Positions 46,412 through 54,318 of a DNA stretch of 64,000 nucleotides are shown one piece after another. A program made the position numbers and the translations under genes. The DNA comes from Fidelibacterota bacterium (GTDB lineage Bacteria; Fidelibacterota; Marinisomatia; Marinisomatales; UBA1611): positions 1-64,000 of the forward strand of contig JABHUQ010000101.1 in the NCBI GenBank assembly GCA_018658715.1, given 5' to 3'. Below the pieces are notes generated by a model. The model was not told the DNA's origin and did no database searches. It was given only the letters and a program-made list of their open reading frames with translations. Numbering within the stretch: position 1 is the stretch's first letter; each line of letters opens with the position of its first letter.

Positions 46412-49400
46412 ATGCGCAGATACCTAGGCGTTTTCGCTTTATTATGTCTGGTTCAAGGCCAGAATGACAGTCTTGTATCCACTTATTATTCAAGTGGTGC
46501 TCAAAAATCTTTAGGTTTTTATACCGAAGGCGTTCGTGATGGTTTATGGACTGAATGGTATGATGGTGAAGTTTATGAAGATTTTGGAGCTGATGGCCAA
46601 CCCAACACCCAAGATGAGGGAGAAGGTAATGGCATTTGGGACTCGACAGAAATCATTACTTTAGATTTGAATAACAATGGAGTATATGACCTCCCACAGT
46701 TATCTACAGATGGTTTTTATATTTCTGGGAATAGGGACTCACTTTGGATTTTTTGGTATCCGAATGGAAATAAGAAAGAACGGGCTTTATATAAAAACGG
46801 CAAATTAAATGGTCATCTAAGCAAATGGTATGATAACGGAAATCGAAAAGAAGGCGGTGTTTACGTTGGCGGAGTACAAGATAGTGTTTGGACTTGGTTC
46901 TATAAAAACGGGATTAAAGAAGAAGAAGCCTTTTTCACAGATGGAGAGCAGGAAGGAAAATGGACATTTTGGTATGAAGATGGGACAAAAAAAGAAGTTC
47001 GAAAATATGTAAATGGAGAAAAAGATAGCACTTGGGTTGTTTGGTATCCAAATGGGAATCGCAAATCTCTTGTAACATACGTTGATGGAAAATTGACGGG
47101 TCCGTGGATATCTTGGTATGAAGATGGAATTTTTAAAGAAAAAAGTGGTGAATATAAAGTAAATAAATTGCACTCACTTTGGACTACCTGGTCAGAAAAG
47201 GGGAGAAAAACAGAAGAAATCACATATGACAATGGAGCAAAAAGTGGTCCATGGGTTCAATGGAATTCTTTTGGCGATAAAGTATTAGAGGGGCGATTTA
47301 AAAAATCAGAAAAAGATGGCGAATGGATTTATTTCTATGATAATGGATTAAAAGAAAAACAGGAAAATTATATCGATGGAAATAAAAACGGGAAATGGGT
47401 CTGGTGGAGAATTGATGGCATTAAAGACTTAGATGGAACATATATAAATGATATTAAACACGGTATATGGACTCATTGGAATACGGCAGATCATAAAAAG
47501 TTAGAAGAAACATTTGTTGATGGAAAATTAGATGGAAAATTAACCACCTGGTTTGATAATGGAAATAAACAACGCGAGGGTATTTTTAGAAATAGCGAAA
47601 ATGAAGGTATTTGGTCTTATTGGAATCCCGATGGAACCATTGATTATACTTTTAATTACGGAAAAGGATTAGATAGATCTGTTATTGCTGGCCTAGAACA
47701 AAGAGATGGTGTTTATTATAAAATTGGGAAAGCAAAACCCTTTACAGGTATTATTGTTGAAACAGGCGGTGCAAGAAAATATTTACTTCTTGGGCGATTT
47801 GAAAAAGGTCTAAAGCATGGTAAGTGGATTCAGTGGCATCGCAATGGTCAAAAATCAATTCATGGGTCTTATCGATATGGACAAAAACACGGTGAATGGA
47901 CTTTGTGGTATCGAGAAGATGAAATGCAAAAAATGGATGCCTTCACCGAAGGAGAATATAGTGGCGGCACTTTCAAATATTGGGACGAAGACACATACCG
48001 CAAAGAATGCGGATATTTTACGAATGGAAAAGTAGATAGTGTTTATAAATATTGGTACCCGAATGGTCATTTATCGCGAGAAGAGCGTTATACTAATGGC
48101 GTAAAAAACGGAAAATGGACAGAATGGTATCAGCGCGATCATGACTTAAAATTTTCTGACGGAAGTTGGAGTTATCGAGGTGATACCTATCGCCTTGAAG
48201 ATGGTGAAGAATTGTGGAATTGGTGGTGGTATCATAATGATAATAAAAAGAAAGAAGGTTATTATCTTAATGGTATTGAACACGGACATTGGACTTGGTG
48301 GTATAATAATGGCACAAAAGAATCTGAAGGAAATTATACTTCTGGTGAACAAGATGGATCTTGGCTTTATTATACAGACAATGAAGTAATTGCAGAAGAA
48401 GTATCATTTAAAATGGGCGAGCGCCACGGTCGTTCTGCTAAATGGTTAAATACCGAAGAAAAAGAATGGGAAAAATTCTTTAAAAATGGAAAATTAGATG
48501 GACCAAGCACTTATTGGTCAAATGGTTATCGCATGACTATGACATCTTACAAAAATGATATACCAGAGGGTCCCTGGGTTATTTGGTATCCAAATGATAT
48601 ACAAATAAAAGAACAAGGATTTAACCTAAATGGTAAACGGAGCGGTCTTACAACTTATTGGTATTCAGACAGTGTAAAACAAAAAGAAGGATACTACTCT
48701 AATGGTAAACCAGATGCTGTATGGTCTTATTGGAATACAAGAGGAGAAAAAGATTTTGATTTCGATTTTGGGAAAAATTTAGAACAAATTGAAATTGCCC
48801 AAATCAATGAAGTAGAAGGATTCTTTTATAAGCTTGGCGATGAAGCACCTTTTACTGGAGTTATTGTTGATGATATAGAAACTGCTGGCTACCTATTTTT
48901 AGGAGCTGTTAAGGATGGACAAAAAGATGGTCCATGGATTAAGTGGTATCCTGGCGGTAAAAAAGTACCCGAAGTAACTATTACAGAAATCCCTGAACCC
49001 GAACCATTCAAACCTTGGAGTGGAAATAAAGAAGAACAAGGTTCATATAAAAATGGTAAAAAGCATGGGGAATGGACAGAATGGTTTGGAAATGAACATG
49101 TAAAATCCCACGGTGAATACAATGAGGGTGTCATGATTGGAGAATGGACTTTTTGGTATGATAATGGTGCCATCGAAAAGAAAGGTCTTCTTGAAAATGG
49201 AAATGCTCATGGTGTGTGGGATTTTTGGAATAGAGATGGGCGTAAAATTCAACAAGGCTCATTTAGTAATGGTATAAAAAATGGCCAGTGGGTTGCGTGG
49301 TTTGAAGATGGGCGTACCACAGAAGGATATTATTCCAACGGTAAAAAACATGATATATGGATTAGTTGGTGGGATGCCGAACACCGGAAAAAAGAAATGC

Positions 49401-49501
49401 AAGGAACTTACCGTGAAGGTAAAATGGTGGATAAATGGTATTTTTACAATGCCGATGGTAACTTGAAAGAAGTTCGATACTTCTCTCCATCTTTTAAATA
49501 G
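46412..49501 (+). CDS. Large secreted MORN/YwqK-type repeat protein
   Basis: A 1,029-residue protein with a short signal peptide (RRYLGVFALLCLVQG). Nearly the whole mature chain consists of some forty units of about 22-25 residues with the consensus G-x-W-x-x-W-Y-x-N-G-x-K-x-x-E-x-x-Y-x-N-G. This is the MORN/YwqK (toxin-antitoxin-type) repeat. Two insertions near residues 430-455 and 790-815 repeat each other as well: YKIGKAKPFTGIIVETGGAR and YKLGDEAPFTGVIVDDIETA. This suggests an internal duplication of a block of about 360 residues. It should form a long rigid beta-hairpin rod outside the cytoplasm. The role is unknown. SD AAGGAAAGGA supports the start. Confidence 0.82.
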   Translation: MRRYLGVFALLCLVQGQNDSLVSTYYSSGAQKSLGFYTEGVRDGLWTEWYDGEVYEDFGADGQPNTQDEGEGNGIWDSTEIITLDLNNNGVYDLPQLSTDGFYISGNRDSLWIFWYPNGNKKERALYKNGKLNGHLSKWYDNGNRKEGGVYVGGVQDSVWTWFYKNGIKEEEAFFTDGEQEGKWTFWYEDGTKKEVRKYVNGEKDSTWVVWYPNGNRKSLVTYVDGKLTGPWISWYEDGIFKEKSGEYKVNKLHSLWTTWSEKGRKTEEITYDNGAKSGPWVQWNSFGDKVLEGRFKKSEKDGEWIYFYDNGLKEKQENYIDGNKNGKWVWWRIDGIKDLDGTYINDIKHGIWTHWNTADHKKLEETFVDGKLDGKLTTWFDNGNKQREGIFRNSENEGIWSYWNPDGTIDYTFNYGKGLDRSVIAGLEQRDGVYYKIGKAKPFTGIIVETGGARKYLLLGRFEKGLKHGKWIQWHRNGQKSIHGSYRYGQKHGEWTLWYREDEMQKMDAFTEGEYSGGTFKYWDEDTYRKECGYFTNGKVDSVYKYWYPNGHLSREERYTNGVKNGKWTEWYQRDHDLKFSDGSWSYRGDTYRLEDGEELWNWWWYHNDNKKKEGYYLNGIEHGHWTWWYNNGTKESEGNYTSGEQDGSWLYYTDNEVIAEEVSFKMGERHGRSAKWLNTEEKEWEKFFKNGKLDGPSTYWSNGYRMTMTSYKNDIPEGPWVIWYPNDIQIKEQGFNLNGKRSGLTTYWYSDSVKQKEGYYSNGKPDAVWSYWNTRGEKDFDFDFGKNLEQIEIAQINEVEGFFYKLGDEAPFTGVIVDDIETAGYLFLGAVKDGQKDGPWIKWYPGGKKVPEVTITEIPEPEPFKPWSGNKEEQGSYKNGKKHGEWTEWFGNEHVKSHGEYNEGVMIGEWTFWYDNGAIEKKGLLENGNAHGVWDFWNRDGRKIQQGSFSNGIKNGQWVAWFEDGRTTEGYYSNGKKHDIWISWWDAEHRKKEMQGTYREGKMVDKWYFYNADGNLKEVRYFSPSFK

Positions 49502-49684: not shown

Positions 49685-52387
49685 ATGAAACACGTATATA
49701 CGTTCGGAAACGGCCAAGCTGACGGTAAGGCGGATATGAAAAATTTACTTGGTGGAAAAGGCGCCAATCTAGCAGAAATGAATTTATTGGGCGTTCCTGT
49801 TCCTCCTGGATTCACCATTACAACAGAAATATGCACTGAATACAATCAGATTGGGCAAGACCAAACAGTTCAAATGATAAAAGAAGAAGTAGGGTTGGGT
49901 GTAAAAAATGTAGAACAAATTATGGGCGCTGAATTTGGTGGAGCTGATAATCCATTATTACTTTCTGTTCGCTCTGGTGCGCGAGTTTCTATGCCGGGAA
50001 TGATGGATACTGTCTTAAACCTAGGTTTAAATGATTCTGCTGTAGAAGCAATTGCCAAAAAAGCTGGCGATGAACGTTTCGCTTGGGACTCCTATCGACG
50101 TTTTGTCCAAATGTATGGCGATGTTGTTTTAGGAATGAAGCCTGAATCAAAAGAAGATATTGATCCATTTGAAGAAATTATGGATGAATTAAAAGAAAGC
50201 CGCGGAATTGAACTTGATACTGATTTCACTATCAAAGATTTAAAAAAACTGGTTTACAAGTTTAAGACTGCCGTCACAAACCAGACGGGTAAAGAATTCC
50301 CCGATAATCCTTGGGATCAATTATGGGGAGCTGTTATGGCAGTATTTGATTCTTGGGAAACACCGCGTGCTGTATATTATAGAAAAATTAATAAAATCCC
50401 TGATGATTGGGGAACTGCAGTAAATGTTCAAGCAATGGTCTTTGGAAATATGGGAAATAATTCAGGGACAGGTGTTGCTTTTACACGCGACGCTGGAACG
50501 GGTGAAAATATTTTTAATGGTGAATATTTGATCAACGCCCAAGGAGAAGATGTAGTTGCGGGTGTTCGAACCCCACAACAAATCACTAAAATCGGATCTG
50601 AAAGGTGGGCACAATTAGCGGGGGTTGAAGAAGATGTAAGAAAAAACATATATCCTTCTCTCGAAGAATTAATGCCAGAGATTTATACTGAATTAGATGA
50701 AATTCAAAATAAACTTGAATCACATTATAAAGATATGCAAGATGTAGAATTCACAATGCAAGATGGAAAATTGTGGATGCTCCAAACACGATCTGGAAAA
50801 CGAACTGGGTTTGCAATGGTTCGAATTGCTATGGAAATGTTAGATAATAGTGAAATCGGTGAAAAAGAAGCTCTTCTTAGAGTGGAACCTAACAAATTAG
50901 ACGAGTTACTTCACCCTGTTTTCAACAAATCTGCTATGGCTGATGCCCGTCTATTAACAAAAGGACTTCCTGCGTCTCCGGGAGCAGCAACAGGACAACT
51001 TGTATTCTTCGCAGATGAAGCTCATAAATATGATAATGCAATTTTAGCGCGTATTGAAACATCTCCGGAAGATTTAGAGGGTATGAATATTGCCAATGGA
51101 ATCTTAACTGCGCGGGGGGGGATGACTTCTCACGCAGCTGTTGTAGCACGAGGTATGGGAAAATGTTGTGTTTCTGGAGCGGGTGAATTAAAAATCAATT
51201 ATAAAACTAGAATAATGGTTGTAAATGGAGAAACCTTTAAAGAAGGAGATTGGGTTTCTCTAAATGGTTCTACTGGGGAAATATTTGAAGGTAAAATCAA
51301 AACAATTGATCCAGAATTATCCGGGGACTTTGAAAAATTAATGGATATTACTAGAAAATATGCAAGAATGTCTGTGCGCACAAATGCAGATACGCCACAT
51401 GATAGTAAAGTAGCTAGAGGGTTCGGCGCAAAGGGAATTGGGCTTTGTCGTACAGAACATATGTTTTTTGAAGGTGAAAAGATTGTTGCAATGCGCGAAA
51501 TGATTTTAGCTGATGATACAGCTGGCCGGGAAATTGCATTAGAAAAATTGCTCCCTATTCAACAAAAAGATTTTGAAGGTATCTTTGAAGCTATGGATGG
51601 ACTTCCTGTAACAGTTAGGCTTCTAGATCCGCCGTTACATGAATTTGTACCTCATGAAGAAAAAGGTCAACAGGAAATGGCGGATGTTATGGGTGTTTCT
51701 ATTGATGTTATTAAAGATAAAGTGGAGGATTTGTCAGAATTCAATCCAATGCTTGGTCACCGAGGATGTCGATTAGGAAATACTTATCCTGAAATTACTG
51801 TTATGCAAACACAAGCCATAATAGGGGCTGCTCTGGCACTAAAGGTGCGAGGTATTACTGCTGTTCCTGAAATTATGATTCCATTAACCGGGACTGTGGC
51901 AGAAATGCAATTACAAGAGCAAATTGTACGTGACACTATTAAAGATTTATTTGATGAAAAGAATGATACTATTGATCATTTGGTGGGTACAATGATTGAA
52001 ATCCCAAGAGCTGCCCTTACAGCTGATAAAATTGCCGAACATGCTGAATTCTTTTCCTTTGGGACAAATGACTTAACTCAAATGGCTTTTGGGTATTCTC
52101 GGGATGATGCTGGAAAATTCCTTCCTGTTTATTTAGAAAAAGGTATTCTCAAAAATGATCCATTTGAAGTATTAGACCAAGATGGTGTTGGGCAATTGGT
52201 GGAAATGGCTTGCGAAAAAGGACGCCAAGCGCGCCCAGGTATTAAATTGGGCATATGTGGTGAGCATGGCGGAGAGCCAAGTTCTGTTGAATTTTGCCAT
52301 CGTGTCGGATTAGACTATGTATCTTGTTCGCCATTTCGGGTACCAATCGCACGACTATCTGCGGCTCAGGCAAACTTAAGAAATTAA
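49685..52387 (+). CDS. ppdK: Pyruvate phosphate dikinase
   Basis: A 900-residue cytosolic enzyme. It has the N-terminal ATP-grasp part (LLGGKGANLAEMN, then LLSVRSGARVSMPGMMDTVL), the central phosphohistidine domain (GGMTSHAAVVARGMGKCCVSG, catalytic His), and the C-terminal PEP/pyruvate TIM barrel (IGLCRTEHMFF, LGHRGCRLG, FSFGTNDLTQM, GICGEHGGEP with the catalytic Cys). It interconverts pyruvate, ATP and Pi with PEP, AMP and PPi, so it serves gluconeogenesis or PPi-linked glycolysis. The length and domain order match bacterial PPDK and not PEP synthase. It appears monocistronic. Confidence 0.96.
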   Translation: MKHVYTFGNGQADGKADMKNLLGGKGANLAEMNLLGVPVPPGFTITTEICTEYNQIGQDQTVQMIKEEVGLGVKNVEQIMGAEFGGADNPLLLSVRSGARVSMPGMMDTVLNLGLNDSAVEAIAKKAGDERFAWDSYRRFVQMYGDVVLGMKPESKEDIDPFEEIMDELKESRGIELDTDFTIKDLKKLVYKFKTAVTNQTGKEFPDNPWDQLWGAVMAVFDSWETPRAVYYRKINKIPDDWGTAVNVQAMVFGNMGNNSGTGVAFTRDAGTGENIFNGEYLINAQGEDVVAGVRTPQQITKIGSERWAQLAGVEEDVRKNIYPSLEELMPEIYTELDEIQNKLESHYKDMQDVEFTMQDGKLWMLQTRSGKRTGFAMVRIAMEMLDNSEIGEKEALLRVEPNKLDELLHPVFNKSAMADARLLTKGLPASPGAATGQLVFFADEAHKYDNAILARIETSPEDLEGMNIANGILTARGGMTSHAAVVARGMGKCCVSGAGELKINYKTRIMVVNGETFKEGDWVSLNGSTGEIFEGKIKTIDPELSGDFEKLMDITRKYARMSVRTNADTPHDSKVARGFGAKGIGLCRTEHMFFEGEKIVAMREMILADDTAGREIALEKLLPIQQKDFEGIFEAMDGLPVTVRLLDPPLHEFVPHEEKGQQEMADVMGVSIDVIKDKVEDLSEFNPMLGHRGCRLGNTYPEITVMQTQAIIGAALALKVRGITAVPEIMIPLTGTVAEMQLQEQIVRDTIKDLFDEKNDTIDHLVGTMIEIPRAALTADKIAEHAEFFSFGTNDLTQMAFGYSRDDAGKFLPVYLEKGILKNDPFEVLDQDGVGQLVEMACEKGRQARPGIKLGICGEHGGEPSSVEFCHRVGLDYVSCSPFRVPIARLSAAQANLRN

Positions 52388-52557
52388 ATTTCATTAGTGA
52401 TGCGGGTGTATATATAAGTAGACTATTCATCTGCCCACTAAAATCATTTTATTCTATATTTTTTGGTTTACATATTATTCATAGAAGTATGTCTGCGTAA
52501 AAAAACAAAATAATTTTCTTTCCACCTTAATAATATTTTGCTATACTCACCCTGCTT
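52388..52557. other. Intergenic region upstream of the asnB leader
   Basis: About 170 bases after ppdK. I see no clear hairpin terminator for ppdK and no RNA gene. The last 40 bases contain the promoter of the asnB leader transcript. Confidence 0.5.
52519..52547 (+). promoter_or_regulatory. Promoter of the asnB leader transcript
   Basis: A -10 box TATACT (52542-52547) with a weak -35 TTTCCA (52519-52524, four of six consensus bases) at 17-base spacing. The expected start of transcription is about 52554, only a few bases before the ATG of the leader peptide at 52558. No Shine-Dalgarno lies in that gap, so the leader peptide would be translated from a leaderless or nearly leaderless mRNA. Confidence 0.55.
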
Positions 52558-52641
52558 ATGAACAACCCGAATTACAACGACATCTTTGTTAATAATAACA
52601 ATAATAACGCTAATAATAGAAGCGTGGGGGATATCGTGTAA
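52558..52641 (+). CDS. Asn-rich attenuator leader peptide of asnB
   Basis: A 27-codon frame, too short for usual gene calls, with start ATG 52558 and stop TAA 52639. Twelve of 27 residues are Asn: NN at 2-3, N at 5 and 7, NNNNNN at 12-17, and NN at 19-20. The peptide ends AxxRSVGDIV. Both AAT and AAC codons are used. The last codons and the stop overlap the antiterminator strand (GTGGGGG at 52624-52630 and GTGTAA at 52636-52641). The stop is 87 bases before the asparagine synthetase start. Asn-codon enrichment exactly ahead of an Asn biosynthetic gene and a terminator is the hallmark of a stalling leader peptide, as in trp and his operons. I have no memory of a described asparagine example of this kind. 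Confidence 0.85.
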   Translation: MNNPNYNDIFVNNNNNNANNRSVGDIV

Positions 52642-52702
52642 CCAGGGTAACCAAGAAAATTACACAAACCCCCACAGCGAAAGCTTGTGGGGGTTTTTTT
52701 TT
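52624..52702 (+). promoter_or_regulatory. Transcription attenuator: antiterminator and terminator of asnB
   Basis: Terminator: CCCCCAC (52669-52675) and AGC (52676-52678) pair with GCT (52683-52685) and GTGGGGG (52687-52693) around a GAAA tetraloop. One T is bulged, and nine T follow (52694-52702). Antiterminator: an identical GTGGGGG at 52624-52630 can take the same CCCCCAC strand, and GTGTAA (52636-52641) pairs with TTACAC (52660-52665). The two folds exclude each other. If the ribosome stalls at the Asn run (52591-52617), the 52624-52641 strand stays free, the antiterminator forms and asnB is read. With Asn plentiful the ribosome reaches the stop at 52641, covers that strand, and the terminator forms. 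The logic is inferred; the pairing is visible. Confidence 0.85.
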
Positions 52703-52728
52703 ACTAAAAATAAAGGAAGAAAAAACAA

Positions 52729-54318
52729 ATGTGCGGAATCGTTTCTTACGCTGGAACTAACTATTCGTTAGACGAAATAAAAACTCATGTCGATAAAATT
52801 CAATATCGTGGGCCTGACAATTCACATTATGAAAGTGTATCCAGAAATATATATTTCATTTTTCATCGATTGGCGATCGTAGGTTTAACAGATGATGGAA
52901 ACCAACCTATGAAACATCCTGAAGATGACTCAATTACACTTATTTGCAACGGAGAGATATATAACTATCAACAATTAGCAGAAAAATATGGATTTAATCT
53001 CCATTCGGGAAGTGACTGCGAAGTAATACTTTTTATGTACAAGAAATTTGGAATTGAAAAAACAATTCAAGAGCTAGATGGTGTATTTATGTTTGTTCTC
53101 TATGATGAATTGAAAAACGAATTATTATCGGGCAGAGATCCTATGGGCGTACGACCCGGTTTTGTTGGGCGTAAAGATGAGGATATTTTTATTTCATCTG
53201 AAGCAAAACCGCTCACCGATTTATGCGACTCTATTATTCCATTTGAACCGGGGACTTGGTGGTCATCTAAAGACCCAAAAACATTTAATAGATATTTTAC
53301 TTACTCAACTCCAATCAACTCAATAGTTGATGATAATGATATTTGTGCTTCTATTCGCCACCACCTAACATCTGCTGTAAACAAAAGGCTTATGTCTGAC
53401 CGAGAAATAGGCTGTCTGCTTTCAGGTGGTTTAGACTCAAGTCTTATAACTGGCCTTGTTGCAAAAGAATATAATGGCCGTGGATTAAATACATTTTCTA
53501 TAGGTATGGAGGGAAGCGTCGATTTGGTCTATGCTAAAGAAGTTGCTGATTTTTTAGGCACTAAACATCATCAGATAGAGCTTACACAGAAGGATTTTTT
53601 AAAAGCAATTGAAACGGTCATTTACAATATTGAATCGTATGATACAACAACAGTGCGCGCAAGTGTGGGGAATTATCTTGTTTCAAAATATATTTCCGAA
53701 AATTCAGATTGTAAGGTGATTTTTAACGGAGATGGCGCAGATGAAGTTTGCTGTGGATATGTATATTTAAAAAATGCTCCTTCTCCGGGGGCATTACAAA
53801 TTGAAAGTGAACGTTTGGTAAAAGAAATATATTTATTTGATGTATTAAGGTCTGATAGAAGTATTAGCTCCAATGGTCTTGAAGCAAGGACCCCATTTTT
53901 AGATAAAGCCTTTGTTAAATATTATCTATCTATTCATCCTGAACTAAAACAATTTGATGGAGAAAAGCGGCTTGAAAAATATTTATTAAGAAAAGCATTT
54001 GAAGGAATGGGGGTAATTCCAGATTCAGTTTTATGGAGAAGAAAGTGTGCATTTTCAGATGGGGTTAGCTCTCAAAAAACATCTTGGCATACGATAGTTC
54101 AATCATTTGTGGATCAGCAGATTTCAGATGAAGAGTTTTCTAAAGAAATAAAATTAATTAAACACTGTACACCCGTATTAAAAGAAAGTTATTATTATCG
54201 TAAGGTGTATAAATCATTTTTTGGAAAACATGATAATTTAATTCCAAAGTTTTGGATGCCGCAGTGGACAGATGTTATTGATCCATCTGCTAGAGAATTG
54301 TCAGGCTATAAAGAGTAG
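52729..54318 (+). CDS. asnB: Asparagine synthetase (glutamine-hydrolysing)
   Basis: A 529-residue enzyme. Cys2 is the nucleophile of the N-terminal class II amidotransferase domain (MCGIVSYAG; also IQYRGPDN, FHRLAIVG, CNGEIYNY). The synthetase domain has the PP-loop LLSGGLDSSLITG, then FNGDGADEVCCGY and ARTPFLDKAF. It makes Asn from Asp, Gln and ATP. It is slightly shorter than E. coli AsnB (554). The start is set by Cys2 and an AAGGAAG about nine bases upstream. Expression is probably governed by the Asn-rich leader and attenuator directly ahead of it. The following gene converges with a ten-base gap. Confidence 0.94.
   Translation: MCGIVSYAGTNYSLDEIKTHVDKIQYRGPDNSHYESVSRNIYFIFHRLAIVGLTDDGNQPMKHPEDDSITLICNGEIYNYQQLAEKYGFNLHSGSDCEVILFMYKKFGIEKTIQELDGVFMFVLYDELKNELLSGRDPMGVRPGFVGRKDEDIFISSEAKPLTDLCDSIIPFEPGTWWSSKDPKTFNRYFTYSTPINSIVDDNDICASIRHHLTSAVNKRLMSDREIGCLLSGGLDSSLITGLVAKEYNGRGLNTFSIGMEGSVDLVYAKEVADFLGTKHHQIELTQKDFLKAIETVIYNIESYDTTTVRASVGNYLVSKYISENSDCKVIFNGDGADEVCCGYVYLKNAPSPGALQIESERLVKEIYLFDVLRSDRSISSNGLEARTPFLDKAFVKYYLSIHPELKQFDGEKRLEKYLLRKAFEGMGVIPDSVLWRRKCAFSDGVSSQKTSWHTIVQSFVDQQISDEEFSKEIKLIKHCTPVLKESYYYRKVYKSFFGKHDNLIPKFWMPQWTDVIDPSARELSGYKE

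Follow-up and report, generated by a model that had tools for sequence, protein, structure and literature searches.

Does the short, asparagine-rich open reading frame that precedes the asparagine synthetase gene of this Fidelibacterota bacterium allow transcription of that gene to follow the supply of charged tRNA-Asn? Transcription attenuation by leader peptides is a textbook class of mechanism, and an earlier examination based on the nucleotide letters and their open reading frames (the sequence-only reading) had proposed it for this locus, which lies within a stretch of 64,000 nucleotides referred to here as the window. The evidence gathered here supports that proposal through a conserved run of Asn codons, covarying stems, an encoded asparaginyl-tRNA synthetase (AsnRS), and Trp leaders in front of trpE. 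The asnB leader is thus best regarded, with a probability of about 0.9 judged from sequence comparison, as a ribosome-mediated transcription attenuator that senses tRNA-Asn charging.

The gene in question, asnB, occupies positions 52729..54318 of the forward strand, on which the leader and its regulatory elements described below are also found. Its product, which is the single AsnB match in its own genome, scores 503.7 bits with the NCBIfam model NF006949 (cut-off 499) and 365.9 bits with TIGR01536 (cut-off 267.1), so that the gene taken earlier for an asparagine synthetase is indeed one, namely the glutamine-hydrolysing asparagine synthase B. A Shine-Dalgarno-like AAGGAAG is located at 52713..52719. 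The leader open reading frame (MNNPNYNDIFVNNNNNNANNRSVGDIV; 52558..52641) has, as had been described, 27 codons of which 12 encode Asn, six of them consecutive (52591-52608); two further Asn codons follow at 52612-52617. Asn accounts for 4.9% of the residues in the neighboring genes, and against this background the probability of at least 11 Asn in 26 codons is about 1.5e-8. Upstream of the leader, the gene for pyruvate, phosphate dikinase (ppdK) ends at 52387, and the leader therefore has its own promoter region. Directly upstream of ppdK, positions 46412-49501 encode a protein of 1029 amino acids composed of short W/Y-and-G motifs that recur and look MORN-like by eye. The genome also encodes AsnRS (TIGR00457, 503 bits; cut-off 342.6), as do most of the relatives, which means that charging of tRNA-Asn can follow the activity of AsnB. 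The idea that AsnB might be unable to feed Asn-tRNA for want of this enzyme, leaving transamidation as the only route, is ruled out by its presence.

The RNA elements required for a switch are found around the end of the leader. A first GTGGGGG (strand A, 52624..52630), which provides the 5′ strand of the antiterminator, lies inside the end of the open reading frame, 20-35 nt downstream of the six-Asn run. A single CCCCCAC (strand C, 52669..52675) is common to the antiterminator and the terminator, and a second GTGGGGG (strand D, 52687-52693) forms the 3′ side of the latter. The intrinsic terminator (52666..52702) is composed of strand C, a stem with a GAAA loop, strand D, and nine T (52694-52702). 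The competition of two identical strands for one partner, the GC-rich terminator with its nine T, and the position of the upstream strand where the leader ends, all pointed out previously, are confirmed. Two helices and the mode of leader initiation had gone unnoticed: the leader has no Shine-Dalgarno sequence and, by prediction, a near-leaderless start; an inner antiterminator helix B (52636..52665) pairs GTGTAA (52636-52641), stop codon included, with TTACAC (52660-52665); and a hairpin P0 (52607..52625), located between the Asn run and the G-run, pairs ACGCT (52607-52611) with AGCGT (52621-52625). The leader segment folds with a z-score of -4.7, and none of 200 shuffled sequences was as good. 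Strand A pairs with strand C in all the antiterminator folds except one, and the probability of this pairing before the synthesis of strand D is close to 1. A pattern scan also picked up this terminator, one of three sites in the scanned region against 0.6 expected. The complete succession of G-run, C-run, G-run, and T occurs at only two sites of the 2.46-Mb draft genome, in front of asnB and of trpE, and at none in the reversed control. Folding revealed no clear full protector (1:2) hairpin in the asnB leader. P0 overlaps strand A by only two bases, and the folds permit P0 and the G-run/C-run helix to exist together; given this small overlap, read-through may be the default state when the RNA is not translated.

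A putative sigma70-type promoter is located at 52519..52547 (TTTCCA, 17 nt, TATACT, with an extended -10 element, TGC before the hexamer). It agrees with the promoter pattern at 9 of 12 positions, which is weak taken alone, and predicts a transcription start at about 52554, some 5 nt from the leader ATG. The TATACT lies 10 nt 5′ of this ATG, an arrangement repeated in one relative (L003) and, by eye, in another (L002); most leader ATGs have a -10-like hexamer at a distance of about 10 nt or less, with a weak motif match in genera g27 and g30. The Shine-Dalgarno energy at this locus is +2.2 for the leader versus -5.7 for asnB. The same difference is observed among the relatives: none of the 21 leaders tested has a Shine-Dalgarno sequence (mean hybrid energy -0.03 kcal/mol; none at or below -4), as against 19 of 21 asnB starts at or below -4 (mean -5.66 kcal/mol). 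From this lack and the proximity of the predicted transcript start, the leader is probably translated leaderless, and its translation would thus rest on this type of initiation. The conservation of its codons speaks for translation of the open reading frame. Leaderless mRNAs are common in hosts such as Actinobacteria, with 33% in Corynebacterium glutamicum (PMC3890552).

The distances along the leader fit the movement of a ribosome. The start of the G-run and the stop codon are 12-15 nt apart in every leader tested, from which it follows that a terminating ribosome covers strand A; the Asn run mostly lies 9-38 nt before the G-run. Folding in the two states had been suggested as a check. With an assumed ribosome footprint of 12 nt past the start of the A-site, strand A remains free in 22 of 22 leaders when a ribosome is placed on the first codon of the Asn run, and the probability of the A:C pairing is 0.75 to 1 before strand D is made; with the ribosome at the stop codon, the terminator is the only structure able to form. 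In the full-length RNA at equilibrium, the terminator is favored even with the ribosome stalled, and therefore the switch must be kinetic. The thr, trp, and his leaders of E. coli give the same equilibrium result in the same calculation, and for this reason the result is not counted against attenuation.

Taken together, we infer translation of the leader from a leaderless start, stalling of the ribosome, a kinetic competition between hairpins, and a response to asparagine. RNA polymerase would begin some 5 nt upstream of the leader AUG, where a ribosome would initiate without a Shine-Dalgarno sequence. When Asn-tRNA is short, the ribosome would stall within the Asn run; strand A and the inner helix would remain free and pair with the emerging strand C, the terminator would come too late, and asnB would be transcribed. 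When Asn-tRNA is plentiful, the ribosome would reach the stop codon and cover strand A together with the 5′ strand of the inner helix. Strand C would then pair with the 3′ GTGGGGG (strand D), and transcription would end at the nine U.

The alignment of the upstream regions of related asnB genes, another check that had been proposed, revealed the Asn run in 22 genomes from six genera, with stems that covary; the lack of conservation that had been named as refuting the proposal was not seen. The close asnB relatives in named genomes all belong to Candidatus Marinimicrobia/Neomarinimicrobiota, and nearly all are metagenome-assembled genomes (MAGs). Among 245 genomes of the phylum, 34 contain a strong AsnB match, 33 of them with the 5′ end of asnB present. 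The Asn-rich open reading frame, the G-run near the stop codon, the C-run, the second G-run, and the T stretch precede asnB in 22 of these 33 genomes, which represent two families; the attenuator is missing in the other 11 orthologues (genera g5, g10, g38, and g40). In the 45 in-frame nucleotides before the G-run, the 22 leaders contain 161 Asn codons (114 AAT and 47 AAC) where 15.5 would be expected. The length of the Asn run ranges between 2 and 9 and the peptide drifts elsewhere between genera, so that the identity of the codons is what is kept.

The stems were compared in groups of leaders aligned separately (a single alignment of all types was misregistered around the G-run). Helix B is formed by GTGTAA/TTACAC in genus g1, CTGTGT/ACACAG in g36, AAGCTTT/AAAGCTT in g8 and g18, TCCCGT/ACGGGA and relatives in g30, and GTCTCA/TGAGAT in g27. 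P0 is present in g1, g27, g30, and g36, with compensatory changes of the types C-G/U-A and C-G/U-A/A-U (12 sequences). For P0 and the terminator together, 93.8% of the alignment cells are paired, compared with 38-53% in slid controls, and seven pairs have changed on both sides; for the terminator helix (helix 2) the values are 95.4% and four pairs. When partners were swapped among the 22 sequences, a test that takes no account of their relatedness, none of 20000 permutations reached the observed mean for helix B, C:D, or P0, and 10 of 20000 did so for A:C. Swaps within groups also weaken P0, from -5.6 to -3.6 kcal/mol. Because D is a second obligatory partner of strand C, the covariation of A:C is limited. 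The G-run helix of the antiterminator has only about 4 bp in L003, one of the relatives.

The sequence-only reading of the device in front of asnB is supported; it missed the presence of this device at further amino-acid genes in the phylum. A covariance model with 12 asnB leaders as its training set, run over the 245 genomes, recovered 22 of the 22 asnB leaders and gave weaker scores before other amino-acid genes. The layout also precedes trpE. In the same genome, the trpE attenuator (L106; G000:C36:30977-31048) has the leader MIYMNTNNYYSWYWFFNCEGVT with two Trp codons, and in 61 relatives examined, own genome included, a Trp-containing leader with G-run, C-run, G-run, and T precedes 12 of 15 trpE loci. 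The two devices, an Asn leader before asnB and a Trp leader before trpE, occur together in six genomes, again including this one. Elsewhere in the phylum, the leader MKLILKSIKTTNQLIWWYNYGGTL (L079) is found before a trpE-like gene, an Ile/Leu-rich leader (L101; G221:C108:11751-11845) before the dihydroxy-acid dehydratase gene ilvD, a Cys-rich leader MKTNDAVCICNICCCSINMEGFIPV with a terminator (L102; G178:C37:27767-27859) before a sulfite-reductase-like gene, and a Met/Cys-rich leader MNIKKMAYNNQNNTRCVDMGIMMCLMCMYSSDTVGVEWLL (L081; G198:C1:58595-58695) before a threonine-synthase-like gene. Leader-like open reading frames with terminators also precede lysW-lysX (L077, L080, and L082), the leader of L077, MSKKNNRPLARNKNIARRAKMLSVGVTV, being rich in Lys and Arg. 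Several other matches of the model were discarded: three from family f15 (L083, L084, and L086) are gene ends with a terminator and are attributed to chance, and two more (L103 and L104) look like chance as well. Nothing else argues as strongly for asparagine sensing by the Asn run as the correspondence between leader codons and gene products across different genes. More tentatively, and at somewhat less than even odds, Neomarinimicrobiota may employ one attenuator design before asnB, trpE, ilvD, sulfite reductase, lysW, and others, in which the leader codons have been swapped; this design would comprise translation of the leader from a leaderless transcript, no protector hairpin, and read-through as the default without translation, with asparagine as a newly recognized input.

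Three other explanations of the locus have to be weighed against attenuation by Asn-tRNA. The terminator might be constitutive, ending upstream or leader transcription without any sensing of asparagine, with the Asn-rich open reading frame as nothing else than an A/U-rich unstructured spacer. In favor of this explanation, the genome region is A+T-rich, and the full-length RNA has no structure more stable than the terminator alone. A spacer of this kind does not account for the choice of AAY over AAR (Lys) codons, which is 161 versus 4 in the 45 nt before the G-run over the 22 leaders, nor for the G-run strand kept 12-15 nt from the stop codon in all the leaders tested, and before trpE the Asn codons are replaced by Trp codons. 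A constitutive terminator is consequently considered quite improbable.

There are precedents for leader peptides that act in trans or through arrest (peTrpL, PMC7298713), and the nascent poly-Asn peptide could itself be the effector, arresting the ribosome or acting in trans, in which case the signal would not be the charging of tRNA-Asn. Against such a role, the leaders of different genera show no conserved sequence beyond the Asn run, the run ranges from 2 to 9 residues, and the device recurs before trpE and ilvD with unrelated leader sequences; an effector peptide is even less probable than a constitutive terminator. The least credible explanation is direct binding of a ligand or of uncharged tRNA by an RNA element, like a riboswitch or a T-box, with an incidental open reading frame. 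The stable conserved stems, P0 included, would suit such an element, whereas P0 is absent in genera g8 and g18, which retain the Asn run. No Rfam family reached its gathering score in the whole window, and a search with E up to 5 gave only sub-threshold matches; Thr_leader and His_leader, but not T-box, are among those at the site. The T-box covariance model itself had no match at gathering in the window and none among the matches listed around the site at E up to 5. Ribosome-mediated sensing of tRNA-Asn charging thus remains the preferred reading.

Among the closest known systems, the threonine leader of E. coli (thrL, RF00506; L124) follows the same plan. It also has a run of cognate codons, an antiterminator 5′ strand (GGTGCGGGCTGA) at the end of the open reading frame reaching the stop codon, a nearly identical terminator 3′ strand (GTGCGGGC) that competes with it for GCCCGCAC, and a T-run thereafter. 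The asnB leader differs in its codons (Asn instead of Thr/Ile), its regulated gene (asnB instead of thrABC), its lack of a Shine-Dalgarno sequence, its extra hairpin P0 and inner helix B, and the phylum in which it occurs. Thr_leader is the top sub-threshold Rfam match by bits (24.5 versus a gathering score of 55), and the asnB leader is accordingly not a Thr_leader by Rfam, though built like one. The trp and his leaders (RF00513 and RF00514) share with it the open reading frame of cognate codons, the alternative antiterminator and terminator, and a terminator that is the equilibrium fold with a stalled ribosome; unlike them, the asnB leader has no clear full protector hairpin. Outside Proteobacteria, leader-peptide attenuators of trp, ilv, and leuS were predicted by comparative genomics in Actinobacteria (Seliverstov 2005, PMC1262725), a survey that contains no asparagine case. 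In bacilli, hisS/hisZ leader peptides replace the T-box. According to Naville and Gautheret 2010 (PMC2965389), no leader peptides had been known outside Proteobacteria and Actinobacteria until that case in Firmicutes. These bacilli leaders respond to His, and no asparagine leader is mentioned in that work.

The sequence-only reading knew of no Asn leader-peptide attenuator of this kind, and none was found in the open literature, in a search that did not cover the broad survey by Lopatovskaya et al. 2010 (Mol Biol 44:128), so that priority is not proven; nor did the papers searched describe any leader attenuator for Neomarinimicrobiota. The class of mechanism is known, and the asparagine input and the phylum appear to be new. 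If the reading is true, ribosome-sensed control extends to asparagine, and amino-acid regulation in uncultured bacteria becomes predictable from sequence alone, in a marine phylum with hardly any cultured members. Together with the layout common to several amino-acid genes, the near-leaderless leader would also make it possible to test whether attenuators evolve by codon swapping.

Regarding the history of the element, the presence of the leader on the asnB tree needs three changes, and the tree does not follow the GTDB families; the leader may accordingly have arisen once or more than once. In the AsnB tree, two sequences of family f8 (L007 and L023) fall among those of family f1. As the phylogeny cuts across GTDB families, asnB may have moved together with its leader between families of the phylum. 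In another relative (L047; G138:C94) the attenuator is kept despite an insert between the terminator and asnB; this insert has long inverted repeats (with GGTTTATCAAAGAGTT ends) and resembles a small mobile element.
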